From Oscillospiraceae bacterium (GTDB taxonomy: Bacteria > Bacillota > Clostridia > Oscillospirales > CAG-272), in assembly GCA_015063305.1 (NCBI GenBank), contig SVUJ01000006.1, positions 1 through 64,000 on the forward strand: 64,000 nt of DNA, given 5' to 3'. How positions within the stretch are numbered: position 1 is the first letter of the stretch; the number at the start of each line of letters is the position of its first letter. A program made the translations under genes and the position numbers. The notes under the pieces are model-generated. The model was not told the DNA's origin and did no database searches. It worked only from the letters and a program-made list of their open reading frames with translations. Below, in pieces: positions 25,295 through 39,322 of the stretch.

Positions 25295-26671
25295 ATGGAA
25301 AAAATGTGGGCAGGACGCTTTTCTAAGTCGCTCGACCAGAAAGCGGATGATTTTAACTCGTCTATTTCCTTTGACAGCAGAATGTACAAGCAGGACATCA
25401 CGGGCTCTATGGCTCATGCTTCTATGCTTGCTAAGCAGGGGATAATAGCTACCGAGGATTGCGAAAAAATAATAGACGGTCTTGCGGCTATACTTGCGGA
25501 TATAGAGAGCGGAGCACTCGAGATAGATATGGGCTGTGAGGATATACACATGTTCGTTGAGGCAGAGCTTACCGCAAGGATAGGCGATGCGGGTAAAAAG
25601 CTTCATACCGCGAGAAGCCGAAACGACCAGGTGGCGGTCGATATAAGACTTTATATGCGCGACAAGTCCGAAGAGATAATTGCGCTTCTCAAAGAGCTTA
25701 TAGAGGCTGTGACCGAACAGGCAGAGGCTAATAAAGGGGTCATACTTCCGGGATATACCCATCTGCAAAGAGCGCAGCCGATAACCTTCGGACATCATCT
25801 TATGGCTTACGCTATGATGTTTTTGAGGGATATATCGAGAATAAAGGTCGCTATTGCGAGAATGAATTATTCTCCGCTCGGCTCTTGCGCGCTTGCGGGT
25901 ACGACGTATAACACTGACAGAATGTTTGCCGCAGAGAAGCTTGGCTTTGACGGTATCACGAGAAACAGTATAGACGGCGTTTCGGACAGAGATTTCTGCC
26001 TTGAGCTTATGAGCGATTTTTCGATAGTGATGATGCACCTCTCAAGGTTTTCCGAGGAAATAATCCTTTGGTCGAGCTGGGAGTTTTCATTCGTTGAGCT
26101 TGACGATTCCTTTACCACGGGCTCGTCTATAATGCCCCAGAAGAAGAATTCCGATATGGCGGAGCTCGTCAGAGGAAAGACGGGAAGAGTGTACGGAAAT
26201 CTTATGGCGCTGCTCACCACACTTAAGGGACTTCCGCTTGCATACAACAAGGATATGCAGGAGGATAAGGAAGCAATATTTGATTCGGTCGATACGGTCG
26301 CGATATGCCTTGAGGTCTTCGCGCCTATGATAAAGACCATGAAGGTAAAGCGTGAGAATATGTATCGCGCGGCGCAAAAGGGCTTTATCAATGCTACCGA
26401 CCTTGCTGACTACCTGACCAAGAAGGGTATGCCCTTCAGAAGCGCATACAAGATAGTCGGACAGATAGTTGCAGAGTGTATTGAAAAGAACTGTGTGCTC
26501 GATACACTTTCGCTTGAAGAATATAAAAAGCATACCGATATGTTTGAGGCTGATCTGTTTGATGAGATATCTCTCGAGACCTGTGTTTCGAAGAGAATAT
26601 CCGCGGGCGGAACTTCGGTTGGCTCGGTCGAGGAGCAGATAGCCTACGTAAAAGAGGAACTTTCAAAATGA
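25295..26671 (+). CDS. argH: Argininosuccinate lyase
   Basis: The 458-residue fumarase-superfamily enzyme splits argininosuccinate to arginine and fumarate. It shows W-A-G-R-F, H-T-A-R-S-R-N-D-Q-V, G-Y-T-H-L-Q-R-A-Q-P (catalytic histidine region) and the signature loop G-S-S-I-M-P-Q-K-K-N. Length is normal. No SD is visible within 15 bases of the ATG; the nearest is GAGGAG before a hairpin, so translation may depend on coupling or on the fold. Its end overlaps argC by ATGA. Confidence 0.95.
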   Translation: MEKMWAGRFSKSLDQKADDFNSSISFDSRMYKQDITGSMAHASMLAKQGIIATEDCEKIIDGLAAILADIESGALEIDMGCEDIHMFVEAELTARIGDAGKKLHTARSRNDQVAVDIRLYMRDKSEEIIALLKELIEAVTEQAEANKGVILPGYTHLQRAQPITFGHHLMAYAMMFLRDISRIKVAIARMNYSPLGSCALAGTTYNTDRMFAAEKLGFDGITRNSIDGVSDRDFCLELMSDFSIVMMHLSRFSEEIILWSSWEFSFVELDDSFTTGSSIMPQKKNSDMAELVRGKTGRVYGNLMALLTTLKGLPLAYNKDMQEDKEAIFDSVDTVAICLEVFAPMIKTMKVKRENMYRAAQKGFINATDLADYLTKKGMPFRSAYKIVGQIVAECIEKNCVLDTLSLEEYKKHTDMFEADLFDEISLETCVSKRISAGGTSVGSVEEQIAYVKEELSK

Positions 26672-27603
26672 CCAAGGTATTTATCGACGGAAAGGCAGGC
26701 ACTACGGGTCTGCGAATATATGAGCGCCTTGAGGCAAGAGATGATGTGGAGATAATAACCCTCTCCGAGGAAGAAAGAAAGCTTCCCGAGGCAAGAAAGA
26801 GAGCGCTTAACTCCTGTGATATCGCGTTTCTGTGTTTGCCCGATGATGCGGCGAGAGAATCGGTTTCTATGATAGAAAACGATAAGGTGACGGTGATCGA
26901 TACGTCAACGGCGCATAGGACAGACGCCGCGTGGTGCTACGGATTTCCCGAGCTCTCGGAGGAATATGAGCAGAAGCTCCTTGGAGCGAAGCGCATAGCA
27001 GTGCCGGGTTGCCATGCAAGCGGTTTTATAGCGCTTGTTTATCCGCTTATTAAGAAGGGGATCATCAATGCTGACGCGTATCTTACCTGTCACTCGATAA
27101 CGGGATACAGTGGCGGCGGAAAAAAGATGATAGCAGAATATGAGGCTGCAGTGGGGCGTTCTGTCCTTCTCGATGCTCCAAGACAGTATGGAATATCCCA
27201 GCAGCATAAGCACCTCAAGGAGATGAAGGCTATTACGGGTATTGACAAAGCACCCTGCTTCTGTCCGATAGTTTCGGATTTTTACAGCGGAATGCTGGTT
27301 ACCGTGCCGCTCTTCAAGGAACAGCTTAACGAGGGGTATGATATAAACAGTATCCGAAAGGTCTATGCCGAGAAATATTGCACAGAGATAGTAAAATATA
27401 CCGAGAGCCTTGATGAGGGCGGCTTTGTTGCGGCTAACGCTGTAGCGGGCAAGGATATCATGCTCGTTTCGGTAAACGGCAACGAGGATAGGATCATCCT
27501 TTGCGCGCTTTACGATAACCTTGGAAAGGGAGCGTCGGGCGCGGCGGTAGAGTGTATGAATACTGTGATGAAAGTTGACAAAACCACAGGTCTTGTTTTA
27601 TAA
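26668..27603 (+). CDS. argC: N-acetyl-gamma-glutamyl-phosphate reductase, short (type 2) form
   Basis: The 311-residue NADPH enzyme reduces N-acetylglutamyl phosphate to the semialdehyde. The start F-I-D-G-K-A-G-T-T-G-L is the Rossmann nucleotide loop. The catalytic cysteine is in V-P-G-C-H-A-S-G-F, and H-R-T-D-A-A-W-C-Y-G-F-P-E-L is typical of the type 2 (TIGR01851) group, about 30 residues shorter than type 1. It is coupled to argH by a 4-base overlap. Confidence 0.94.
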   Translation: MTKVFIDGKAGTTGLRIYERLEARDDVEIITLSEEERKLPEARKRALNSCDIAFLCLPDDAARESVSMIENDKVTVIDTSTAHRTDAAWCYGFPELSEEYEQKLLGAKRIAVPGCHASGFIALVYPLIKKGIINADAYLTCHSITGYSGGGKKMIAEYEAAVGRSVLLDAPRQYGISQQHKHLKEMKAITGIDKAPCFCPIVSDFYSGMLVTVPLFKEQLNEGYDINSIRKVYAEKYCTEIVKYTESLDEGGFVAANAVAGKDIMLVSVNGNEDRIILCALYDNLGKGASGAAVECMNTVMKVDKTTGLVL

Positions 27604-27624
27604 TATAGTTTAGAGGTAATAACA

Positions 27625-28836
27625 ATGAAGAATATAACAGGCGGCATTTGCGCCGCAAAGGGATTTACCGCAAACGGAATTCACTGCGGTATCCGAAAGA
27701 ATAAAACCAAGCGCGACCTTGCGCTCATATATAGTGAAGTTCCCGCATCTGCGGCTGCTGTTTACACAACTAATCTTGTTAAGGGAGCCCCCCTTACCGT
27801 TACAAAGGATAATATATCCAACGGTATCGCGCAGGCGGTGATATGTAACAGCGGTAACGCGAACACCTGTAATGCGAACGGTATAGAGATAGCAACTCAG
27901 ATGTGTGAGCTTCTCGGCAAGGAGCTGGGTATGCCCGCGAACAACGTTATCGTTGCTTCAACGGGAGTTATAGGTCAGCCTCTTGACATAACACCTATCG
28001 CAAACGGAATTCCCGCGCTTGTTGCGGGACTTGGAGATAACAGCGGGTATGCCGCTGAGGGCATAATGACTACCGACGTCAAGGTCAAGGAGATAGCTGT
28101 TGAGTTTGAGATAGGCGGTGAGGTCTGCCGTATGGGCGGTATAGCCAAGGGAAGCGGAATGATCCACCCCAATATGGCAACTATGCTCGTCTTTGTAACT
28201 ACAGACTGCGCTATTTCTCCCGCTATGCTTTCCGAGGCGCTTTCCGAGGACGTAAAGACGTCCTTCAATATGATAAGCGTTGACGGTGATACATCGACCA
28301 ACGATATGGTTTCTGTTATGGCAAACGGTCTTGCGGGTAACAAGACTATAACAGAGAAGGGCGAGGATTTTGATAAGTTCTGCGAGGCTCTTCATGCTGT
28401 TACTTCTTATCTTTGCCGTATGATCGCTGCTGACGGCGAGGGAGCTTCCAAGCTCCTCGAATGTACCGTAAAGGGCGCAAAGGATACCGACAACGCGAGA
28501 AAGGTTGCAAAATCGGTAGTCTGCTCGTCGCTCTTCAAGGCGGCTATGTTCGGAGCTGACGCAAACTGGGGACGTGTGCTTTGTGCTGTAGGATACAGCG
28601 GAGCGGACGTTGATATCAACAAGGTAGACGTTGCGTTTGAATCCGAAAAGGGAATCATAGACGTTTGCCACAACGGCTCGGGAGTTGCTTTTTCCGAGGA
28701 GAAGGCAAAGGAGATACTTCTCTGTGACGAGATACATATACTCATAGGTCTTGGCGACGGTGACGGTGAGGCTGTTGCATGGGGCTGCGACCTTACCTAT
28801 GATTACGTCAAGATAAACGGAGATTACAGAACATAA
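27625..28836 (+). CDS. argJ: Bifunctional ornithine acetyltransferase / N-acetylglutamate synthase
   Basis: The 403-residue Ntn-type enzyme recycles the acetyl group from acetylornithine to glutamate, so no argA or argE is needed. The self-cleavage site is the conserved K-G-S-G-M-I-H-P-N-M-A-T-M-L, with the bond expected between Ala185 and Thr186; Thr186 becomes the nucleophile of the beta chain. The oxyanion region S-T-G-V-I-G is at 112-117. SD AGAGGT precedes the ATG, and argB follows after 28 bases. Confidence 0.96.
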   Translation: MKNITGGICAAKGFTANGIHCGIRKNKTKRDLALIYSEVPASAAAVYTTNLVKGAPLTVTKDNISNGIAQAVICNSGNANTCNANGIEIATQMCELLGKELGMPANNVIVASTGVIGQPLDITPIANGIPALVAGLGDNSGYAAEGIMTTDVKVKEIAVEFEIGGEVCRMGGIAKGSGMIHPNMATMLVFVTTDCAISPAMLSEALSEDVKTSFNMISVDGDTSTNDMVSVMANGLAGNKTITEKGEDFDKFCEALHAVTSYLCRMIAADGEGASKLLECTVKGAKDTDNARKVAKSVVCSSLFKAAMFGADANWGRVLCAVGYSGADVDINKVDVAFESEKGIIDVCHNGSGVAFSEEKAKEILLCDEIHILIGLGDGDGEAVAWGCDLTYDYVKINGDYRT

Positions 28837-28864
28837 GGCATTTGAGTGAAAGAGGAAGATAGAG

Positions 28865-29731
28865 ATGGATCAGAGTGTTATGCAGCGCGCCAACATTCTT
28901 ACAGAGGCGCTGCCCTATATAAAGAAATATTACAATAAGGTGATCGTTGTCAAGTACGGCGGAAACGCTATGATAAACGACGAGCTTAAGGATGCGGTCA
29001 TGGGAGATATAGTTCTTCTCTCACTTATAGGCATCAAGGTCGTGCTCGTTCACGGCGGCGGTCCTGAGATAACCGATATGCTCTCAAAGATAGGCAAGAA
29101 GAGTGAGTTTGTAAACGGTCTGCGCGTTACCGATAAGGAGAGCGTGGATATCGTACAGATGGTTCTTGCGGGTAAGGTCAATAAGAACCTTGTTAACCTT
29201 ATTCAGAATAAGGGCGGCAAGGCAATAGGTCTTTGCGGTATCGACGGCCATATGATAAAGGCTGAGATGCTTGATAAGAAGCTTGGCTACGTCGGAGAGA
29301 TAACCGATGTCAACGTCACTCCTATTCTCGACGTTCTGGAGAAGGGATATATTCCTGTTATATCGACTATCGGATGTGATGATGAGGGCAATTCCTACAA
29401 CATAAATGCAGACACTGCCGCTGCAAGAATTGCGGGACAGCTTGGCGCTGAAAGCCTTATATCGATGACCGATATAGAGGGAATACTTCGCGATAAGAAC
29501 GATCCATCAACACTCATTTCAAAGATATACGTAAGTGATGCGCCCGAGCTTATGAGAAACGGAATTATAAGCGGTGGAATGATACCTAAGGTGAACTGCT
29601 CCATAGAGGCGATAAGACGTGGAGTTAAGAAGGTATTTATCATTGACGGAAGAATACCTCATGCAATACTCATCGAAACGCTGACAAATGAAGGAATCGG
29701 AACGATGTTCCTCTCGGGTAACAATATATGA
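28865..29731 (+). CDS. argB: Acetylglutamate kinase
   Basis: The 288-residue amino acid kinase phosphorylates N-acetylglutamate. It has V-V-K-Y-G-G-N-A-M (phosphate-binding Lys/Gly), V-H-G-G-G-P-E-I, and the N-x-N-A-D-T-A-A loop. A roughly 20-residue N-terminal helix before the core (Q-R-A-N-I-L-T-E-A-L-P-Y-I) is the type associated with hexameric, arginine-inhibited NAGKs, so feedback inhibition is likely. The stop overlaps argD by ATGA. Confidence 0.95.
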   Translation: MDQSVMQRANILTEALPYIKKYYNKVIVVKYGGNAMINDELKDAVMGDIVLLSLIGIKVVLVHGGGPEITDMLSKIGKKSEFVNGLRVTDKESVDIVQMVLAGKVNKNLVNLIQNKGGKAIGLCGIDGHMIKAEMLDKKLGYVGEITDVNVTPILDVLEKGYIPVISTIGCDDEGNSYNINADTAAARIAGQLGAESLISMTDIEGILRDKNDPSTLISKIYVSDAPELMRNGIISGGMIPKVNCSIEAIRRGVKKVFIIDGRIPHAILIETLTNEGIGTMFLSGNNI

Positions 29732-30891
29732 TGATCAAGGATATTGATAAGGAATACGTTGCTAATACATACGCGAGGTTTCCTCTGACGCTCGTCAGCG
29801 GAAAGGGCTCGCTTGTGTATGACGAGAACGGAAAAGAATATATAGACCTTGGAACGGGTATTGCGGTCAATACCTTTGGAATAGGCGATGAGGAGTGGAT
29901 AGGCGCGATAAATGCGCAGCTTGGAAAGATACAGCACACATCCAATCTCTATTACAGCGAACCCTGTGCCAACCTTGCAAAGATGCTTTGCGAGAGAACG
30001 GGAATGAAGAAGGTCTTCTTCTCAAATTCGGGAGCTGAGGCGAACGAATGCGCTATAAAGGCGGCTCGTAAATACGGAGAGAATACAAAGGGAGAGGGAT
30101 ATACAACTATCATCACCCTTAAGAACAGCTTCCACGGAAGAACCTTGACGACCCTTGCGGCAACGGGACAGGATACCTTCCATAACGATTTCAAGCCGCT
30201 CACTCCCGGATTTGTATACGCCGAGGCGAACAATATTGAGGATATAAAGCGCTTGTGCGCCGAGAATAAATGCTGTGCGGTTATGTTTGAGGTCGTTCAG
30301 GGAGAGGGCGGAGTAAATCCGCTTGACCGAGAATACCTCACAGAGCTTGCCGCGTTTGCAAAGGAGAAGGATATTCTTCTCATTGCAGACGAGGTTCAGA
30401 TAGGTAACGGACGAAGCGGTATGCTTTACGGATATATGAACTACGGTATCACACCCGATATAGTTTCAACAGCTAAGGGACTTGCGGGAGGACTTCCGAT
30501 AGGAGCTACTCTGCTTGGCGAAAAGGTGAAGGAGGTCTACACACCCGGACTTCACGGCTCGACTTTCGGCGGAAATCCGATATCCTGCGCGGCGGCAATA
30601 AGCATTATATCAAGGCTTGACGAGGCTATGCTTGACGGAGTCAAGAAGAGAAGCAAGTTTATATTTGATGAGCTTTCGGATGCCGAGGGGGTCAAGAGCG
30701 TAAGCGGTCTTGGACTTATGATAGGCGTTGAAACGGCTCGTCCCGCATCAGATATAATATCCGAATGTATGGAGCGCGGAGTTCTTGTTATAAAGGCAAA
30801 GAACAAGGTAAGAATGTTACCGGCTCTCAATATCACGATGGAACAATTAAAAATTGCTATAGATATATTTAAGGAGGTATGCAGAAAATGA
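29728..30891 (+). CDS. argD: Acetylornithine aminotransferase
   Basis: The 387-residue class III PLP aminotransferase converts N-acetylglutamate semialdehyde to N-acetylornithine. It shows F-F-S-N-S-G-A-E-A-N-E, F-H-G-R-T, A-D-E-V-Q-I-G-N-G-R-S-G and the PLP lysine in S-T-A-K-G-L-A-G-G-L-P-I-G. The start overlaps the argB stop; a second ATG three bases on is an equally possible start. The end overlaps argF by ATGA. Confidence 0.95.
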   Translation: MMIKDIDKEYVANTYARFPLTLVSGKGSLVYDENGKEYIDLGTGIAVNTFGIGDEEWIGAINAQLGKIQHTSNLYYSEPCANLAKMLCERTGMKKVFFSNSGAEANECAIKAARKYGENTKGEGYTTIITLKNSFHGRTLTTLAATGQDTFHNDFKPLTPGFVYAEANNIEDIKRLCAENKCCAVMFEVVQGEGGVNPLDREYLTELAAFAKEKDILLIADEVQIGNGRSGMLYGYMNYGITPDIVSTAKGLAGGLPIGATLLGEKVKEVYTPGLHGSTFGGNPISCAAAISIISRLDEAMLDGVKKRSKFIFDELSDAEGVKSVSGLGLMIGVETARPASDIISECMERGVLVIKAKNKVRMLPALNITMEQLKIAIDIFKEVCRK

Positions 30892-31790
30892 AGCATTTGC
30901 TTAAGCTTATGGATCTGACCGAGAAGGAGATATGTGAGATACTCAACACGGCAGATCAGCTTAAATACGAGAAAAGAAATAAGATTCCGCACCACATTTT
31001 GGAGGGGAAAACACTTGGAATGATCTTTGAGAAGTCTTCCACAAGAACCAGAGTTTCCTTCGAGGTGGGTATGTACGACCTTGGCGGAGCTGCACTCTTC
31101 CTTAGCTCGAGAGACCTTCAGATAGGCAGAGGCGAGCCTGTAGAGGATACCGCGAGAGTTCTTTCACGTTACCTTGACGGTATTATGATAAGAACCTTCG
31201 ATCAGGAGGAGGTCGAAGCGCTTGCGGCTGTTGGAAGCATTCCCGTAATAAACGGACTTACCGACTATTGCCACCCCTGTCAGGTACTTGCTGACCTTAT
31301 GACCATACGTGAGCATAAGGGAACTACCAAGGGACTTAAGCTCTGCTATATCGGCGACGGTAATAATATGACCAACTCCTTGATAGTTGGCGGAATAAAG
31401 ATGGGTATGAGCGTGTCTGTTGCTTGTCCTAAGGGATATGAGCCCGATGAAAAGATAATGAAGTGGGCTGAGTCTACGGGAAGCTTCGTTTGCACAGATG
31501 ACGTGCTTGAGGCGGCTAAGGATGCGGACGTTCTTTATACCGACGTATGGGCTTCTATGGGACAGGAAGGCGAGGCTGAAGAGAGAAAGAAGATATTCAG
31601 CGGATATCAGATAAACAGCGAGGTTATGGCGGTTGCCGATAAGGAAGCTATGGTGCTTCACTGTCTGCCCGCGCACCGCGAGGAGGAGATAACCGCAGAG
31701 GTCTTTGAAGCGCACGCGGAGGAGATATTCGATCAGGCAGAGAACAGACTTCACGCTCAGAAGGCTGTGCTTGTAAAATGTCTTGCATAA
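30888..31790 (+). CDS. argF: Ornithine carbamoyltransferase
   Basis: The 300-residue enzyme makes citrulline from ornithine and carbamoyl phosphate. It contains K-S-S-T-R-T-R (carbamoyl phosphate site), the ornithine-binding loop H-C-L-P-A-H-R, and D-Y-C-H-P-C-Q. I choose the ATG at 30888: the earlier in-frame ATG at 30879 is only one base from SD AAGGAGG, while 30888 is ten bases away, overlaps the argD stop as ATGA, and gives the usual start M-K-H-L-L-K-L. Confidence 0.95.
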   Translation: MKHLLKLMDLTEKEICEILNTADQLKYEKRNKIPHHILEGKTLGMIFEKSSTRTRVSFEVGMYDLGGAALFLSSRDLQIGRGEPVEDTARVLSRYLDGIMIRTFDQEEVEALAAVGSIPVINGLTDYCHPCQVLADLMTIREHKGTTKGLKLCYIGDGNNMTNSLIVGGIKMGMSVSVACPKGYEPDEKIMKWAESTGSFVCTDDVLEAAKDADVLYTDVWASMGQEGEAEERKKIFSGYQINSEVMAVADKEAMVLHCLPAHREEEITAEVFEAHAEEIFDQAENRLHAQKAVLVKCLA

Positions 31791-31802: not shown

Positions 31803-32876
31803 ATGAAGAAAGCATATTTGATTCTTGAGGACGGACATATTTTCGAAGGAACAGCTTTTGGAGCTGAGGTTGAATCTGTTGGCGAGTTGGTGTTCACAAC
31901 AGGAGTTGTCGGATACACCGAAACCTTGACAGACCCCAGCTATTACGGTCAGATAGTTCTTCAAACATTCCCGCTTATAGGAAACTACGGTATAATTCCC
32001 GAGGATGCAGAGGGAAAGAGCTACCTTAAGGGATACGTTGTAAGAGAGTGGTGCGATACTCCCTCTAACTTCAGAAGTGAGTACGATATAGACAAGTATC
32101 TCAAAGAGGAGGGGATCCCCGGAATTTACGGCGTGGACACCCGTGAGATAACTGCTATGATCCGTGAGAAGGGCGTTATGAACGCGGCTATCTGCTATGA
32201 AGTTCCCGAAAATCTCGACTTTATTAAGGATTACGCTGTTACCGATGCGGTCAGCGCTGTTACCGATAAGGAGATATATACGGTAGCGCCCGAGGCAGAG
32301 GCAAAGTTCAACGTAGCGCTTATAAACTACGGCAAGAAGAACGGAATAATCAGGGAGCTCGTGGCAAGAGGCTGTAAGGTAACAGTCCTTCCCGCAGACG
32401 CTAAGGCAGAGGATGTCACCGCTATCGCTCCCAACGGAATAGTTCTTTCAAACGGCCCCGGTGATCCCGCTGAGAATACCGATAGCATTGAGTGTGTCAA
32501 GAAGCTCCTTGGTAAATATCCGATGCTTGGAGTATGTCTTGGACATCAGATATTGGCACTTGCAAACGGCGGAGTGACCTTCAAGCTCAAGTACGGCCAC
32601 AGAGGCTCTAATCAGCCTGTTAAGGATCTTAACGGTATAAATACCTATATAACCGTACAGAACCACGGATATGCAGTTGCACCCAACAGCATAACCGGCG
32701 GAAAGGTAACACTCGTTAACGCTAACGACGGAACCTGTGAGGGAATAGAATATCCTGCTATCAACGCTTTTTCGGTACAGTTCCATCCCGAGGCTTGTAC
32801 AGGACCTATCAACACCGCATTCGTGTTTGACAGATTTATAAAAATGATGGGAGGTACGGAAGATGCCGCTGAGTAA
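31803..32876 (+). CDS. carA: Carbamoyl-phosphate synthase, small (glutaminase) subunit
   Basis: The 357-residue subunit hydrolyses glutamine and channels ammonia to CarB. The class I amidotransferase triad is visible: Cys in G-V-C-L-G-H-Q, and His/Glu in F-H-P-E-A. The N-terminal CPSase_sm_chain domain has F-T-T-G-V-V-G-Y-T-E-T-L-T-D-P-S-Y. It sits after argF, so this enzyme probably supplies arginine synthesis. Its 3' end overlaps carB by 14 bases. Confidence 0.95.
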   Translation: MKKAYLILEDGHIFEGTAFGAEVESVGELVFTTGVVGYTETLTDPSYYGQIVLQTFPLIGNYGIIPEDAEGKSYLKGYVVREWCDTPSNFRSEYDIDKYLKEEGIPGIYGVDTREITAMIREKGVMNAAICYEVPENLDFIKDYAVTDAVSAVTDKEIYTVAPEAEAKFNVALINYGKKNGIIRELVARGCKVTVLPADAKAEDVTAIAPNGIVLSNGPGDPAENTDSIECVKKLLGKYPMLGVCLGHQILALANGGVTFKLKYGHRGSNQPVKDLNGINTYITVQNHGYAVAPNSITGGKVTLVNANDGTCEGIEYPAINAFSVQFHPEACTGPINTAFVFDRFIKMMGGTEDAAE

Positions 32877-35800
32877 GGATATAAGAAAAGTACTTGTAAT
32901 AGGCTCAGGCCCTATAGTTATAGGACAGGCTGCAGAGTTTGACTATGCGGGCGCTCAGGCGTGTCACGTACTCAAGGAGGCGGGAGTAAACGTTGTTCTT
33001 GTAAACTCCAACCCCGCTACAATAATGACAGACAACGCTATGGCAGACGAGATATATCTCGAGCCTCTCACAGTTGATACTATAAAAAGAGTTATAGAAA
33101 AGGAAAAGCCCGACAGTCTTCTTGCGGGACTTGGCGGACAGACAGGTCTTACACTTGCTATGCAGCTCTCGCACGAGGGATTTCTCAAGGAGCATAACGT
33201 AAGACTCCTTGGTACTGATGCTAAAGCGATCGATAAGGCAGAGGACAGACAGCTCTTCAAGGATACGATGGAGGAGATAGGTCAGCCCTGCATACCTTCT
33301 GATATAGCAAATGATATAGACTATGCACTTATGATAGGTGCGAGAATAGGATATCCCGTTATAGTACGCCCTGCGTTCACACTTGGCGGTGCAGGCGGCG
33401 GAGTTGCTTATAATGCAGAGGAGCTTGCAATAATTGCAAAGAACGGTCTTGATGCTTCTCCCATTTCGCAGATACTTGTGGAAAAGTATATTTTCGGTTG
33501 GAAAGAGATAGAGTTCGAGGCTATGCGAGACTCGGCTGGAAACGCTATCGCCGTGTGTAGTATGGAAAACGTAGACCCCGTTGGAGTTCATACGGGTGAC
33601 TCTATAGTTGTTGCTCCTGCGCTCACTCTTTCGCCTAAGGAATATCAGATGCTCCGCAACGCGTCCTTGAGCATAGTTTCGGCTCTCGGAATAGTCGGAG
33701 GCTGTAACTGTCAGTTTGCTCTTAATCCCGACTCTATGGAGTATGCGGTCATAGAGGTAAACCCCCGTGTATCCCGTTCCTCGGCACTTGCAAGTAAGGC
33801 TACAGGATACCCGATAGCAAAGATAACCACCAAGATAGCACTTGGATATACACTTGATGAGATAACCAACGACATTACGGGAAAGACATGCGCTTGTTTT
33901 GAGCCTACAGTTGACTACGTAGTTGTAAAATTCCCCAAGTGGCCCTTCGAGAAGTTCACGGGCGCGAGCCGTAAGCTCGGCACTCAGATGAAGGCTACGG
34001 GTGAGGTAATGTCGATAGCGCCGAGCTTTGAGATGGCGCTTATGAAGGCGGTCAGAGGTGCGGAGATATCTCTTGATACTCTCAATGCCGCGCCTATAAG
34101 CGATCTTCCCGTTATGGAGCGTCTTAAGATATCGGACGACAGAAGAATATTCACGGTATTTGAAGCTATCAAGAGCGGAGTTGCGCTTGAAGCTATCAAC
34201 GATATCACAAGAATAGATATGTTCTTCCTCAATAAGCTCAAGAAGCTTGCCGATTTCGAGCTTGATATCGCCGAGAACGGAATGGGAATAGAGGAATATA
34301 AGAGAGGAAAGAAGCTGGGATATACCGACAAGGCTCTTATGCGTATCGGCGGTGAGATAGAACACCCTGAGATGAACGCAAGCTATAAGATGGTCGATAC
34401 CTGTGCGGCTGAATTTGACGCTCAGACTCCCTATTTCTACTCTACCTATGACAGCGCCTGTGAGGCGCGCTCCTTCAAGAAGTCGGGCAAGGAAACGATA
34501 GTGGTCCTTGGCTCAGGTCCTATAAGAATAGGACAGGGAATAGAGTTTGACTATTCCTCTGTACACTGCGTATGGACACTTAAGGAGCTTGGATATGATG
34601 TTGTTATAGTTAACAACAACCCCGAGACCGTATCTACCGACTATGATACCGCGGACAGGCTCTATTTTGAGCCCCTTACTCCCGAGGACGTTATGAATAT
34701 CCTCAAGGTTGAAAAGCCGATAGGTGTCGTTGTTGCGTTCGGTGGACAGACAGCTATCAAGCTTACAAAGTTCCTTGATGACAACGGAATAAGAATTCTC
34801 GGAACTTCGGCAGAGGGTATAGATACGGCAGAGGACAGAGAAAAGTTCGATGCGCTCCTTGAAAGATTTAACGTAAAGCGTCCTGTGGGAACAAGCGTTA
34901 TGACGCTTGAGGAAGCGCTTGAGGCTGCTAACAGTATAGGATACCCCGTGCTTCTCCGTCCCTCGTACGTTATAGGCGGACAGAATATGTCTATAGTTTA
35001 TAACGACAGAGAGGTTGAGACCTATATGAAGCGTATACTTGCAACAGGAATCGAGAATTCGGTGCTGGTTGATAAGTATATGATGGGAACAGAGCTTGAG
35101 GTAGACGTTATATCCGACGGAACAGATGTTCTTATACCGGGTATAATGCAGCACGTTGAGCGCGCAGGAGTACACAGCGGCGACTCTATCGCGGTATATC
35201 CGCCCTACAGCATAAATGATAAGATGCTTAAAACTGTTGTTGAAACCTCTGAGAACCTTGCGCTTGCGCTTGGCACAAAGGGGCTTGTAAACATTCAGTA
35301 CCTTATATACCAGAACGAGCTCTACGTTATAGAAGTTAACCCCAGAGCGTCGAGAACAGTTCCTTACATCAGTAAGGTTACGGGTGTCCCGATGGTCGAT
35401 CTCGCAACAAGAGTAATGCTTGGCACACCTCTGTGTGAGCTTGGATTTGGTTCAGGACTCTACAAGATACCGCCTTACTATGCTGTAAAAGTGCCTGTAT
35501 TCTCCTTTGAAAAGCTGACAGACGCAAACTCCTACCTTGGTCCGGAGATGAAGTCCACAGGTGAGGTGCTTGGACTTGGTAAGAACCTCAATGAGGCTAT
35601 ATTCAAGGGACTTACCTCAGCGGGCTTTAAGCTCAAACATCCGAGTGCGGGTGTTGACGTTGGCGTATTTATCAGCGTAGGTGAGCACGACCTCTTTGAG
35701 ATAGTTTCACTTGCAAAGAAGCTTGACGATATCGGAATGAAGATATACGCTACCAAGGAGACCGCACAGTCTATAGAGGGACTTGGCACTAAGGTCACAG

Positions 35801-36897
35801 CCGTTGGCTCTATAAACGACAGCGATGACGTTTATAAGCTCATTGAGCAAGAGAAGATAAGCTATATCGTTTATACAGGAACACTCTTTGATTCTACCCT
35901 TAACGATTATATCAATCTTCACAGAAAGGCTCTTCACCATTCTGTGGCTTGTCTTACATCTCTCGATACAGCTAACGCTTTGGCGGATATAATCGCAAGT
36001 AAGTACAACCAGCAGAATACCGAGCTTGTCGATATCAACAATATGGCGTCTGAGCACAGACTTATCAAGTTCTCCAAGATGGAGGGAACAGGTGACGACT
36101 ATATCTTTATCGAGAATTTCGATAACAGCATAAACTGTCCCGAGTCGCTCTGCCTTAAGATGTGCGACAGACACTACGGTATCGGCGGATACGGAATAGT
36201 TCTCCTTGAGAAGTCGGACGTTGCCGATGCGAAGATGAGAATATTCAACCGTGACGGAAGTGAAGGAAAGATGGCAGGTAACTGTATCCGTTGCGTAGGA
36301 AAGTATCTGTATGATAATAAGATAGTCAAGAAGGAAAGAATGGCTATAGAAACGGGAAGCGGAATCAAGGATCTCACGCTTTACACAAGAAACGGAAAGG
36401 TTTCGACCGTATCGGTAGATATGGGTAAGGCAAGTATCCTTTCTAAGAATATTCCTACCACCATTGATGCCGAGAGAGTTATAAACTATCCTCTCACGGT
36501 TGGCGGAAAGGAATATAAGGTGACCTGCGTTTCTATGGGTAACCCGCACTGCGTGGTATTTACCGATTACGTGGACGGCGTGGACGTTAAGAAGATAGGT
36601 CCTATGTTCGAAAACGCTCCAGAATTCCCCGAGAGAATAAATACCGAGTTCATTCGCGTGGTAAACCCCACAACTATTAAGATGCGAGTCTATGAGAGAG
36701 GTAACGGTGAGACCCTCGGATGCGGAACAGGTGCTTGCGCGGCAGTCGTTGCGGCTGTTGAGAACGGCATCTGCAAGATGGGCGAGGATATCACAGTTAA
36801 GCTTCGCGGCGGAGATCTTATAGTAAACTATACAGATGACGGAGTTACTCTCACGGGTAATGCAGACCTTATATATCAAGGATATTTCAAGGACTAA
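32863..36897 (+). CDS. carB: Fusion: carbamoyl-phosphate synthase large subunit (CarB) with C-terminal DapF-like epimerase domain
   Basis: One open frame of 1344 codons. Residues 1 to about 1055 are a complete CarB: two ATP-grasp halves (G-S-G-P-I-V-I-G-Q-A-A-E-F-D-Y at the start, its repeat G-S-G-P-I-R-I-G-Q-G-I-E-F-D-Y near 546) and the MGS-like allosteric domain. Residues 1061-1344 (284) are a full-length diaminopimelate epimerase-like domain: I-K-F-S-K-M-E-G-T-G, F-N-R-D-G-S-E-G, S-M-G-N-P-H-C, V-Y-E-R-G-N-G-E-T and G-C-G-T-G-A-C-A (Cys1287, the Cys217 equivalent). Sites usually catalytic or conserved differ: Ala1138 at the Cys73 position (Cys1141 nearby), Asp1078 at Asn11, Tyr1110 at a conserved Asp. 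No SD precedes Met1061. It is the last arginine operon gene. Confidence 0.93.
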   Translation: MPLSKDIRKVLVIGSGPIVIGQAAEFDYAGAQACHVLKEAGVNVVLVNSNPATIMTDNAMADEIYLEPLTVDTIKRVIEKEKPDSLLAGLGGQTGLTLAMQLSHEGFLKEHNVRLLGTDAKAIDKAEDRQLFKDTMEEIGQPCIPSDIANDIDYALMIGARIGYPVIVRPAFTLGGAGGGVAYNAEELAIIAKNGLDASPISQILVEKYIFGWKEIEFEAMRDSAGNAIAVCSMENVDPVGVHTGDSIVVAPALTLSPKEYQMLRNASLSIVSALGIVGGCNCQFALNPDSMEYAVIEVNPRVSRSSALASKATGYPIAKITTKIALGYTLDEITNDITGKTCACFEPTVDYVVVKFPKWPFEKFTGASRKLGTQMKATGEVMSIAPSFEMALMKAVRGAEISLDTLNAAPISDLPVMERLKISDDRRIFTVFEAIKSGVALEAINDITRIDMFFLNKLKKLADFELDIAENGMGIEEYKRGKKLGYTDKALMRIGGEIEHPEMNASYKMVDTCAAEFDAQTPYFYSTYDSACEARSFKKSGKETIVVLGSGPIRIGQGIEFDYSSVHCVWTLKELGYDVVIVNNNPETVSTDYDTADRLYFEPLTPEDVMNILKVEKPIGVVVAFGGQTAIKLTKFLDDNGIRILGTSAEGIDTAEDREKFDALLERFNVKRPVGTSVMTLEEALEAANSIGYPVLLRPSYVIGGQNMSIVYNDREVETYMKRILATGIENSVLVDKYMMGTELEVDVISDGTDVLIPGIMQHVERAGVHSGDSIAVYPPYSINDKMLKTVVETSENLALALGTKGLVNIQYLIYQNELYVIEVNPRASRTVPYISKVTGVPMVDLATRVMLGTPLCELGFGSGLYKIPPYYAVKVPVFSFEKLTDANSYLGPEMKSTGEVLGLGKNLNEAIFKGLTSAGFKLKHPSAGVDVGVFISVGEHDLFEIVSLAKKLDDIGMKIYATKETAQSIEGLGTKVTAVGSINDSDDVYKLIEQEKISYIVYTGTLFDSTLNDYINLHRKALHHSVACLTSLDTANALADIIASKYNQQNTELVDINNMASEHRLIKFSKMEGTGDDYIFIENFDNSINCPESLCLKMCDRHYGIGGYGIVLLEKSDVADAKMRIFNRDGSEGKMAGNCIRCVGKYLYDNKIVKKERMAIETGSGIKDLTLYTRNGKVSTVSVDMGKASILSKNIPTTIDAERVINYPLTVGGKEYKVTCVSMGNPHCVVFTDYVDGVDVKKIGPMFENAPEFPERINTEFIRVVNPTTIKMRVYERGNGETLGCGTGACAAVVAAVENGICKMGEDITVKLRGGDLIVNYTDDGVTLTGNADLIYQGYFKD

Positions 36898-36909
36898 TAA
36901 AATAAGATA

Positions 36910-36951
36910 CCGACGGGAAACTTCTTTGAGGTTTCCCGTCGGGTGTTTTTA
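36910..36951 (+). terminator. Terminator of the arginine operon
   Basis: CCGACGGGAAAC (36910-36921) pairs perfectly with GTTTCCCGTCGG (36931-36942) and is followed by GTGTTTTT. Confidence 0.88.
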
Positions 36952-37036: not shown

Positions 37037-37825
37037 TTAAAACATTTCCAGTGATTTTCTGAGAAATGCCTGAGTTTTTGGAGATTTGGGAGAATCGAAT
37101 ATCTCGGCGGGAGTACCCATTTCCTCGATAACGCCGTCTGCCATGAAGATGACCTCGTCGGAAACGTTCTTTGCGAACTCCATCTCGTGTGTTACCACTA
37201 TCATTGTGGTATTTGACGATTTCAGGTCGCAAATTACCTTCAGCACCTCGCCTGTAAGCTCGGGGTCAAGAGCACTGGTAGGCTCGTCAAAGCAGAGGAT
37301 ATCGGGGGAGAGAGCAAGGGCACGGGCAATAGCCACGCGCTGCTGCTGTCCACCAGAGAGCTCACACGGATAATTTTTTGCTTTGTTTACGAGATCAACC
37401 TTTTCAAGCAGCGACCAAGCGTTTGCCTCTATTTCTTCAATTCGAGCCTTTCTTTCCTCCTTTGATAAATTTTCCTCTTTCAATCTGAGCTTAGGAGCTA
37501 AGGTCAGATTATCGATTACGTTATACTGGGGGAAGAGATTGAAGGACTGGAAAACAAGACCGAAACGAAGTCTGTTTCGTCTTATTTCGGCATCGGATAA
37601 CTTTTGATGTGATGCCGCGTCAAAGATAACGTTGTTATCAATGGACATAGTGCCTTCGTCGGGCGTTTCCAAGAAGTTAAGGCAGCGGAGCAGGGTGGTC
37701 TTTCCGCTTCCCGAAGAACCGATTATCGAAAGAGCTTTTCCTCGTTCAAGTTCGAAGTCTATGCCTTTTAACACCTCAACCTTGCCAAAGCTTTTTTTGA
37801 TATTTGAAACTTTAAGTAATGACAT
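37037..37825 (-). CDS. Polar amino acid ABC transporter, ATP-binding protein (GlnQ type)
   Basis: 262-residue ABC ATPase. Walker A G-S-S-G-S-G-K-T-T, signature L-S-G-G-Q-Q-Q-R, Walker B L-C-F-D-E-P-T-S and switch histidine V-T-H-E are all present, with the family's L-N-F-L-E-T-P-D-E-G segment. I start at 37825 (M-S-L-L-K-V) because SD AAAGGAG lies 5 bases before it; a longer in-frame reading would run back into the permease gene. It forms an importer with the two genes upstream. Confidence 0.93.
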   Translation of the reverse strand: MSLLKVSNIKKSFGKVEVLKGIDFELERGKALSIIGSSGSGKTTLLRCLNFLETPDEGTMSIDNNVIFDAASHQKLSDAEIRRNRLRFGLVFQSFNLFPQYNVIDNLTLAPKLRLKEENLSKEERKARIEEIEANAWSLLEKVDLVNKAKNYPCELSGGQQQRVAIARALALSPDILCFDEPTSALDPELTGEVLKVICDLKSSNTTMIVVTHEMEFAKNVSDEVIFMADGVIEEMGTPAEIFDSPKSPKTQAFLRKSLEMF

Positions 37826-37835
37826 AAATTCTCCT

Positions 37836-38480
37836 TTAAGCCTTGTAATAGTTGAGCTTCTTCTCAAAGTAACCGAAGAGAAGGGATAGCAGACCGACAA
37901 ATATCAAGTAGAAGACAGCCGTATAGAACAGAGGCCACATAAGACCGTAAGCTGCAAAGTTCTGAGCGGCCTGGATAATTTCTACTATCATAATTACTCT
38001 TGCAAGAGCGGTATCCTTAACAAGTGTTATGATTTCATTAGACATAGGCGCAAGTATACGCTTCACGACCTGCATAAGGATTACCTTAAAAAACACCTGT
38101 GTTTTAGTCATACCAAGGACCTGACCAGCCTCATATTGACCTTTGGAGATGCTTTCGATTCCACCGCGATATATTTCGGAAAAGTAGCAGGCGTAGTTGA
38201 TAACAAAGGCCGCCACTACAGACCCAAAGCGGGAAAAGAGAGGCGTTCCAAAAAGGAATCCCGGTACGTAAAAAACAATTATTACTTGAAGCATAAGCGG
38301 GACGCCGCGTATTATCCAAACGAATATTTTAGTTATGTAAGCAAGGGGCTTGAATTTTGACATAGAGCCAAAAGATATGACCAAACCCAAAGGAAGCGCT
38401 AACACAAGTGTTAGCGCAAATATCAGGCAGGTCTGTTCAAGTCCCTGGAGTAATTTTAAGGTGACTTCCCAAAAACCCAT
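37836..38480 (-). CDS. Polar amino acid ABC transporter, permease (HisM/GlnP type)
   Basis: This 214-residue membrane protein of the HEQRo/His-Gln permease family has about five helices. The EAA coupling loop appears as E-A-G-Q-V-L-G-M-T-K-T-Q-V-F-F-K-V-I-L-M-Q, with the Q-V-I-I-V-F-Y and F-S-E-I-Y-R-G-G-I-E-S-I segments typical of the group. It ends 10 bases before the ATPase start. A single permease implies a homodimer channel. Confidence 0.92.
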   Translation of the reverse strand: MGFWEVTLKLLQGLEQTCLIFALTLVLALPLGLVISFGSMSKFKPLAYITKIFVWIIRGVPLMLQVIIVFYVPGFLFGTPLFSRFGSVVAAFVINYACYFSEIYRGGIESISKGQYEAGQVLGMTKTQVFFKVILMQVVKRILAPMSNEIITLVKDTALARVIMIVEIIQAAQNFAAYGLMWPLFYTAVFYLIFVGLLSLLFGYFEKKLNYYKA

Positions 38481-38527
38481 ATTATAAATCCTTTGTAAAT
38501 GTAAAAATAACTGACCGGAGCGCTATA

Positions 38528-39322
38528 TTACTCAATAGTTTCGGTAACCTTGAGAACATTTTCAAAGCCATATTTCTTTGCGAGTTCCAAAAGCTTTCCG
38601 TTCTGCTCAAGCTCTTTGATAGCTTCATTTACCTTTGCGGTAAGATCGCTGCCTTTCTTGAAGCCAACAGCATAGATCTCGGATTCGAGTTTAATATTTT
38701 CAACGATAGAGAGATCAGCGTAATCACCCTGACCGCAGAGGTTCTGAGCCAAAACGATATCAACTACGATAAAGTCAACAGCGCCGGACTTAAGCTCGGG
38801 GAATGCCTTTATCTGAGATGTAGCCTTAAGCACTTTAGCTTCGTCAGTTGCGGTCTTAGCATAAGCCTCACCTGCGCTTCCGCCTTCAACGCAAGCAGTT
38901 TTGCCCTTAAGCACTTCTGCAGAGGTGTAGTTTGCAAGCTCAGATGTCTTAACTACTATACACTGCTGGTTGAGCATATAGCCATAAGAGAAATCAACGA
39001 GGTCGCTTCTCTTTACGCCGTTGTCGCTGGAGTTAGCGGTAAAGCCGTTCCAAATGCAGTCGATAGCTCCGGAATTGAGCTCGTTATATTTCTGTTCCCA
39101 TTCGATTTCCTGGAATTCGACCTTCATACCGATTATCTCGCCGACAGCCATAGCAAATTCGGATTCAAAACCGGTCCAGTTTCCGTTTTCGTCTTTTTCG
39201 TTCATGTTTTCGAAAATAGTTACACCGCAAACGAGTGTATCATCTTCCTTTTTACAACCAACAAATGCAAACATACAAATAATGCCTGCGAGTATCAAAC
39301 ATAAAACCTTTTTCATATTCAT
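38528..39322 (-). CDS. Polar amino acid ABC transporter, substrate-binding lipoprotein
   Basis: 264-residue SBP of family 3. Signal peptide with lipobox A-F-V-G-C (Cys23) makes it a lipoprotein. The N-lobe has G-F-E-S-E-F-A-M-A-V-G and E-W-E-Q-K-Y-N-E-L-N-S-G-A-I-D-C-I-W-N-G-F; the C-lobe has K-T-A-C-V-E-G-G-S-A-G-E-A-Y. SD GGAGGA precedes the first ATG. Ligand class is polar amino acids (cystine, Gln, Glu or basic); the exact ligand is not readable. Confidence 0.9.
   Translation of the reverse strand: MNMKKVLCLILAGIICMFAFVGCKKEDDTLVCGVTIFENMNEKDENGNWTGFESEFAMAVGEIIGMKVEFQEIEWEQKYNELNSGAIDCIWNGFTANSSDNGVKRSDLVDFSYGYMLNQQCIVVKTSELANYTSAEVLKGKTACVEGGSAGEAYAKTATDEAKVLKATSQIKAFPELKSGAVDFIVVDIVLAQNLCGQGDYADLSIVENIKLESEIYAVGFKKGSDLTAKVNEAIKELEQNGKLLELAKKYGFENVLKVTETIE

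Follow-up and report, generated by a model that had tools for sequence, protein, structure and literature searches.

A carbamoyl-phosphate synthase large subunit fused to a DapF domain that lacks a catalytic cysteine

Carbamoyl phosphate serves the synthesis of both arginine and pyrimidines, and how a cell balances the two with a single carbamoyl-phosphate synthase (CPS) is a classic question. Diaminopimelate (DAP) epimerase, DapF, carries out its catalysis with two cysteines, Cys73 and Cys217 in the numbering of Haemophilus influenzae and Escherichia coli. This report concerns a gene that joins the large subunit of the former, CarB, in frame to a DapF domain. It lies in a stretch of 64,000 nucleotides from a gut bacterium, referred to as the window (positions 1 to 64,000 of contig SVUJ01000006.1, assembly GCA_015063305.1, Oscillospiraceae bacterium).

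Important residues of both partners have been described. In E. coli CPS, Thr977 and Lys993 are critical for uridine monophosphate (UMP) and Thr1042 is an ornithine residue (PMC6245113). The PROSITE signature of DapF around Cys73 contains the string C-[GI]-N-[GA]-x-R (quoted in PMC8225329). Alanine in place of either cysteine nearly abolishes the activity of Corynebacterium glutamicum DapF, as it does at each recognition residue, and alanine at N15, taken as the equivalent of Asn11, abolishes it (PMC5296763). Cysteine-to-serine changes leave less than 0.1% of the activity of PddB (PMC8225329) and greatly reduce that of HisR (PMC11602996). The first-pass annotation of the window, made from its letters alone, knew of no described CarB-DapF enzyme, and a literature search agrees: no description of such a fusion was found among the open-access papers listed, with preprints and most subscription journals outside the search.

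I read the protein of the window, with a probability of about 0.55, as a CPS large subunit with a C-terminal DapF domain that turned into a pseudo-epimerase and was kept as a ligand-binding domain. An ancestral CPS-epimerase fusion would have carried a working two-cysteine epimerase; in the window's clade Cys73 is gone and the DAP pocket and Cys217 are retained, and several residues of the CarB site for UMP and inosine monophosphate (IMP) are missing. The pseudo-epimerase domain may bind a diamino acid (DAP foremost, with ornithine, lysine and arginine as candidates) and, standing directly behind the MGS domain, may adjust the activity or assembly of CPS, partly replacing nucleotide control of the CPS of the arginine operon. 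A bolder version, which I put forward only tentatively, is that of a new class of CPS allostery, in which an epimerase domain turned sensor of DAP or another diamino acid replaces the UMP site and links the supply of carbamoyl phosphate for arginine to the pool of lysine and cell-wall precursors, catalysis having been lost several times independently and the pocket kept. The fusion, its position after MGS and the sensing role that the first-pass annotation suggested as a possibility agree with the observations more closely than an active epimerase would.

The fusion and its spread

By open reading frame (ORF) analysis, the frame begins with ATG at 32863 and ends with a stop at 36895-36897, encoding 1344 residues. 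Residues 1-1055 constitute a complete CPS large subunit and residues 1068-1341 a complete DapF. TIGR01369 matches the protein over residues 4-1042 with 1387 bits (cut-off 1027), a full-length CarB match, and CPSase domains were found by both Pfam and NCBIfam. TIGR00652 matches residues 1068-1341 with 274 bits (cut-off 114.65), covering both halves of DapF. The ORF and the profile matches confirm what the first-pass annotation had proposed, a single 1344-codon CarB-DapF frame at 32863..36897, with the DapF domain directly after MGS (residues 946-1032). An AlphaFold2 model of MGS plus DapF (mean pLDDT, a confidence score, 89.1) predicts a full-length, two-domain DapF fold behind a loose linker, and the model superposes best on ligand-bound DapFs (9mro at 1.3 Å, 3ejx at 1.5 Å). 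Rows from VIA-align refer to the DapF part of this model only.

The same annotation saw neither a stop nor a Shine-Dalgarno sequence at the junction near 36043, and rereading the sequence gave the same result: no stop between the CarB and DapF parts, and nothing like a Shine-Dalgarno sequence upstream of the in-frame Met1061 (36043). Such sequences are seen before carB (GGGAGG) and carA (AAGGAAGG). The linker has no methionine in 17 of the 71 full-length fusions of the window's clade, which means that restarting at this point is not conserved. A restart at Met1061 was rejected on these two grounds, the missing ribosome-binding site and the unconserved methionine.

When 396 genomes of the order were searched with the DapF part, the fusion appeared in at least 117 of them; a search with the whole protein found stop-free matches across nearly the full length in congeners and other families. 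The fused set analyzed below comprises 122 genomes, the 117 of the order and five congeners from the whole-protein search; contig ends cut the fusion in G149, G024 and a few others (G and L numbers are my labels for genomes and loci). Within the class, a hand count gave at least 44 of 333 genomes with a single stop-free match spanning MGS and DapF, the state of Cys73 being read only in those also in the order set. The search for the fusion in other genomes that the first-pass annotation had proposed thus turned it up widely. Named GTDB records with the fusion include Ruminococcus sp. FC2018, Neglectibacter sp. X58 and Treponema sp. C6A8, besides many metagenome-assembled genomes (MAGs); among the matches listed, a sheep-colon MAG, RGIG5350, comes closest to the window (79% across MGS and DapF). 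The best 80 of at least 591 GTDB loci comprise 72 fused or cut fusions and 8 separate DapFs.

The CarB-DapF fusion is real and no assembly error, and far from being an isolated oddity it belongs to a large family. The worry over a hidden frameshift or stop is removed because the same frame occurs in many separately assembled genomes, namely at least 117 of the order, the single-contig G579 and the named strains; an artefact can practically be dismissed.

Cysteines, allosteric sites and ancestry

That the domain is DapF-like and of full length, as first annotated, holds by its TIGR00652 score. It is not an ordinary DapF, however: alanine (Ala1138) occupies the position of Cys73, a point that had been overlooked, and the domain fails the PROSITE signature at that cysteine. 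I will call fusions that keep Cys73 intact and those that lack it disarmed. The position holds Ala in 74 of the 122 fused domains, Cys in 26, Ser in 9, Gly in 8 and Phe in 5, so that Cys73 is kept in 26 and lost in 96, the latter including all 71 full-length members of the window's clade. In the named GTDB set (n = 72) the tally is Ala 28, Cys 25, Gly 12, Ser 4, Phe 1, Thr 1 and one unaligned, with Cys217 present in all 72, intact ones included. One domain of the order set (G029) keeps Cys73 and has Ser at Cys217. Of the separate DapFs, 59 were examined and every one has both cysteines; 42 come from disarmed-fusion genomes (61 have a second DapF, and the copies of 19 were left out), 3 from intact-fusion genomes and 14 from outside the 122. 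Fusions from Treponema and Spirochaetaceae (L235, L236, L244, L246) lack Cys73 in all four cases.

Of 273 columns, Cys73 alone is fixed at 92% or above among intact fusions yet falls below 15% in the window's clade. The window's domain has all the DAP recognition residues (N64, N157, N190, E208, R209, T219). Across the clade (n = 71), N64, N190, E208, C217 and T219 are invariant and N157 and R209 occur in 70 of 71; all seven fall within the most conserved fifth of the 273 columns (P 1e-5). Asn11 is replaced by Asp1078 in the window, and the clade has Asn 43 times, Asp 27 times and Ala once. The ratio of nonsynonymous to synonymous substitution (dN/dS) for six pairs within the genus is 0.034-0.048 for DapF and 0.031-0.058 for CarB, rough figures given that the pairs are near saturation. 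As far as comparison of sequences goes, the DapF domain of the window's clade is shown to be under purifying selection.

Conservation of this kind bears on a serious rival, in which the domain would be retained to dimerise or stabilise CPS and would bind no regulatory ligand. Separate DapF is a dimer (PMC4227774), effectors change the oligomeric state of E. coli CPS (PMC6245113), and the domain is predicted to be folded at full length, all of which would suit such a role. The residues of the substrate cleft, however, rank with the best-conserved positions of the domain in the disarmed clade, which counts against it because cleft residues are not expected to be needed for dimerisation, and I consider a purely structural role unlikely, though deserving of attention.

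Less probable still is an enzyme of one cysteine, in which Cys217 would serve as sole base for another reaction, such as an elimination or dehydration. The trans-3-hydroxyproline dehydratases, which share the DapF fold, use a one-cysteine mechanism, and dehydratases of that fold are among the structural matches. The strict retention of Cys217 (71 of 71 and 17 of 17 disarmed domains within and outside the clade, and every fused GTDB domain) is the strongest point in favor of chemistry, whether leftover or new. Against this, the recognition sub-site is the same as in DAP epimerase, with no sign of a new specificity, and the operon, as read from its genes, is one for arginine synthesis.

The site residues of CarB were mapped by alignment to E. 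coli CarB (1a9x). The window retains Thr977 of the UMP pair and has Ser at Lys993, so that, judged from the alignment, the E. coli-type pair is incomplete; the ornithine-site Thr1042 is present. Other replacements affect Lys954, which I take to belong to the nucleotide site, and the triplet Asn1015-Thr1016-Thr1017, presumably also nucleotide-site residues. The clade of 71 keeps Thr1042 in 69, Thr977 in 69, Lys993 in 16, Lys954 in 8 and Asn1015 in 1. The intact fusions have Lys993 in 26 of 26 and Lys954 in 25 of 26, with Ser at both Asn1015 and Thr1017 in all 26.

A tree of 114 full-length fusions separates a group of 71 rows, the window among them, in which Cys73 is missing throughout, from 43 rows, 26 of them with Cys73, and its well-supported branches force at least 5 changes in the state of Cys73. 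A second tree (FastTree), of the CarB part, contains 21 unfused CarBs, 24 of the 71 clade rows (random except for G000 and G303) and all 43 others; frames were chosen by CarB motifs, and G095 and G376 (long branches) and G034 (no frame with CarB motifs) were left out. This tree needs one gain of the fusion and one loss, and in it the window's clade forms a single group with full support, nested among other fusions. Most simply, then, these sequences suggest that the fusion arose once. Because of that nesting, the two-cysteine fusion is likely the ancestor and the window's form derived, and the ancestral form was probably a working epimerase. One CarB (G026, L303) is unfused although its place on the tree is among fusions, and has probably lost its DapF domain.

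In another CarB lineage, an unfused two-cysteine dapF lies 10-18 bases after carB (G015, G194, G095, G073; L284, L294, L299, L301), with a stretch like a ribosome-binding site in between, and the last three of these genomes additionally carry a disarmed fusion elsewhere. This arrangement provides a plausible route to fusion and indicates a repeated association of carB with dapF. G226 (L082) has an intact fusion followed directly by a separate dapF and then dapL, as if duplicated.

The source of meso-DAP and the weighing of the reading

The window's genome (94.6% complete) gives no match to a second or divergent DapF by PF01678 or TIGR00652, the stand-alone dapF for which the first-pass annotation had advised a search, nor one to DapL (LL-DAP aminotransferase; TIGR03542). 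It does have a match at 447 bits to meso-DAP dehydrogenase (Ddh), and from this genomic context it appears that its meso-DAP comes from Ddh. The genome also has two MurE-like ligases over the cut-off (L260, L261), with third-amino-acid motifs DNSR and DNPD; I take the Asn-Ser-Arg of the former to be a variant of the DAP-type motif.

Backups were tallied in 117 fused genomes including G030 (the five congeners lie outside the Ddh set), with 8 weak Ddh matches scored as absent and a DapF fragment below the cut-off in G414 left uncounted. Among 91 genomes with Cys73-lost fusions, 61 have a second DapF over the cut-off, 26 have Ddh only and 4 have neither; among 26 with Cys73-kept fusions, the numbers are 4, 9 and 13 (loss of Cys73 versus presence of a backup, Fisher 2.4e-7).

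DapL provides a sharper marker, sought in 80 genomes chosen from the 122, with a partial match below the cut-off in G056 scored as absent. Where a two-cysteine DapF is present anywhere in the genome, 40 of 47 have it, versus 2 of 33 where none is (G051 and G268). On the tree (77 rows), 15 independent pairs give about 12 concordant and 0.5 discordant, with a median p of 0.001. Checked by hand, 12 of the 26 intact fusions have dapL no more than 3 kb downstream, and at least 15 separate DapFs have it as a neighbor. TIGR03540 was rejected as a marker for DapL; it is the wrong model, with 0 of 45 genomes over its cut-off. Cys73-keeping fusions are very probably epimerases, and genome context suggests that LL-DAP epimerase activity in the cell is supplied by the older form but not by that of the window.

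That the disarmed fusion persists as a bifunctional enzyme with slow or water-assisted DAP epimerase activity is less probable than either rival above, for although 18 of 22 Cys73-keeping fusions that are the sole DapF have DapL, and G268 has DapL with a disarmed fusion only, DapL was not found in 31 of the 33 genomes whose only DapF is disarmed, single-cysteine mutants of enzymes of this fold are nearly dead or much reduced (in the papers cited above), and the window's genome has Ddh.

Several observations weigh against the reading of the domain as a pseudo-epimerase and sensor. The association of Cys73 loss with a backup comes down to only 5 independent pairs on the tree, too few for any power, and therefore has no phylogenetic support. 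DapL was not found in 7 of the 47 genomes with a two-cysteine DapF, and in G223 dapL lies just upstream of a disarmed fusion. G268 (99% complete, L282) has DapL but no match to Ddh or to a second DapF, which may leave the disarmed fusion as its sole epimerase. G051, G338 and G386 likewise have neither match (the first two have congeners with a second DapF, and the fusion of G386 runs off its contig). Retention of Cys217 in 71 of 71 clade domains is more than a pure sensor obviously needs. The dN/dS of the DapF part reaches 0.28 among 26 hand-picked pairs, several of which were not computable. Finally, among the 17 disarmed fusions that fall outside the window's clade, Lys954 is retained in 17 and Lys993 in 13. 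Cys73 can thus be lost without the UMP site going too, and as these alignments have it, the two losses are not tightly coupled.

Replacement epimerases were considered for G268. DapF2, of the pyridoxal phosphate type, is one such replacement (PMC9026213), but G268 was rejected as a case of it: it has two alanine-racemase-like genes, a number shared by 9 of the 15 other genomes searched. Nor does any of the 8 proteins inspected in the neighborhood of its dapL qualify as a candidate.

In a large group of Clostridia, most of them uncultured, and in some Treponema, the control of CPS appears to have been altered by means of a disarmed foreign enzyme. The intact and disarmed fusions, with at least 5 changes on the tree, form a natural series in which the transition from enzyme to pseudo-enzyme can be traced. 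Because the window's domain passes the NCBI cut-off for DapF, annotation pipelines would infer a lysine/DAP route that its cell probably does not use.

Gene neighborhood and comparison with known systems

The fusion gene is the last of the run argH-argC-argJ-argB-argD-argF-carA (Table 1). In the window's clade, 20 of 23 loci have arginine genes ahead of carA, versus 0 of 17 other loci; of the three clade loci without them, two have too little sequence and G223 has none, and some of the 17 are cut by contig ends. The five genomes searched from the window's own genus (G000, G001, G009, G012, G303) have one CarB over the cut-off each, and many other fused genomes have a second, unfused CarB (74 genomes searched). 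Long ORFs lie antisense to carB-dapF at 32905-34365 (486 codons) and 35707-36879 (390 codons) on the minus strand, with similar ones in relatives. Directly after the arginine operon, on the opposite strand (37037-39322), lies a set of genes that, as read, would encode an ABC transporter for amino acids (ATPase, permease and binding protein).

Table 1. Coordinates of features in the window, with the evidence for each.
Feature	Position	Strand	Evidence
argH, argC, argJ, argB, argD, argF in one run	25295..31790	+	ORFs; names from reading translations; syntenic in relatives
carA, overlapping the start of carB	31803..32876	+	ORF; name by reading; similarity extends to relatives
carB-dapF fusion gene, 1344 codons	32863..36897	+	ORF; same fusion in relatives
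CarB part (CPSase large subunit)	32872..35988	+	TIGR01369 over cut-off
Leu944 at Lys954 position of E. coli CarB	35692..35694	+	1a9x alignment
MGS allosteric domain, residues 946-1032	35698..35958	+	PF02142
Ser983 at Lys993 position of E. coli CarB	35809..35811	+	1a9x alignment
Tyr1004-Thr1005-Gly1006 at Asn1015-Thr1016-Thr1017 position	35872..35880	+	1a9x alignment
Thr1032 at Thr1042 (ornithine site) position, retained	35956..35958	+	alignment
Linker with Met1061, no upstream Shine-Dalgarno-like sequence	36043..36063	+	sequence reading
DapF domain	36064..36885	+	TIGR00652; predicted fold
Ala1138 (GCA) at catalytic Cys73 position	36274..36276	+	alignment, sequence
Cys1287, equivalent to Cys217, retained	36721..36723	+	alignment, sequence
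GC-rich inverted repeat and T run, terminator-like operon end	36910..36950	+	read by eye from sequence

Compared with CarB of the E. coli type (TIGR01369), the window's protein shares all the CPS domains and the ornithine site at Thr1042, differs in the replacement of Lys954, Lys993, Asn1015 and Thr1017 (mostly so throughout its clade), and adds the C-terminal DapF domain. Compared with DapF (TIGR00652; 9mro, 3ejx, 5m47), the domain has Ala for Cys73 and Asp for Asn11, is fused to CarB and, by genome context, appears not to be the cell's DAP route.

Three described systems resemble the proposed one in part. In E. coli, DapF(C73A,C217A) has no catalytic activity and nevertheless activates RppH through binding (PMC4227774), a case of the DapF scaffold regulating another enzyme without epimerase activity; there, however, a separate, active enzyme forms a complex, whereas the window has a covalent fusion with CPS and has lost a catalytic residue. 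In human CPS1, an amino-acid derivative, N-acetylglutamate, controls CPS at the C-terminal region (PMC4655335), but it binds a domain of CPS itself, whereas in the window a foreign epimerase domain has been added. DapF of Chlamydia, a bifunctional epimerase and glutamate racemase (NF038284), is a DapF fold with a widened role (PMC5885031); that protein is active, and the window's scores 107.6 on NF038284, against a cut-off of 350.

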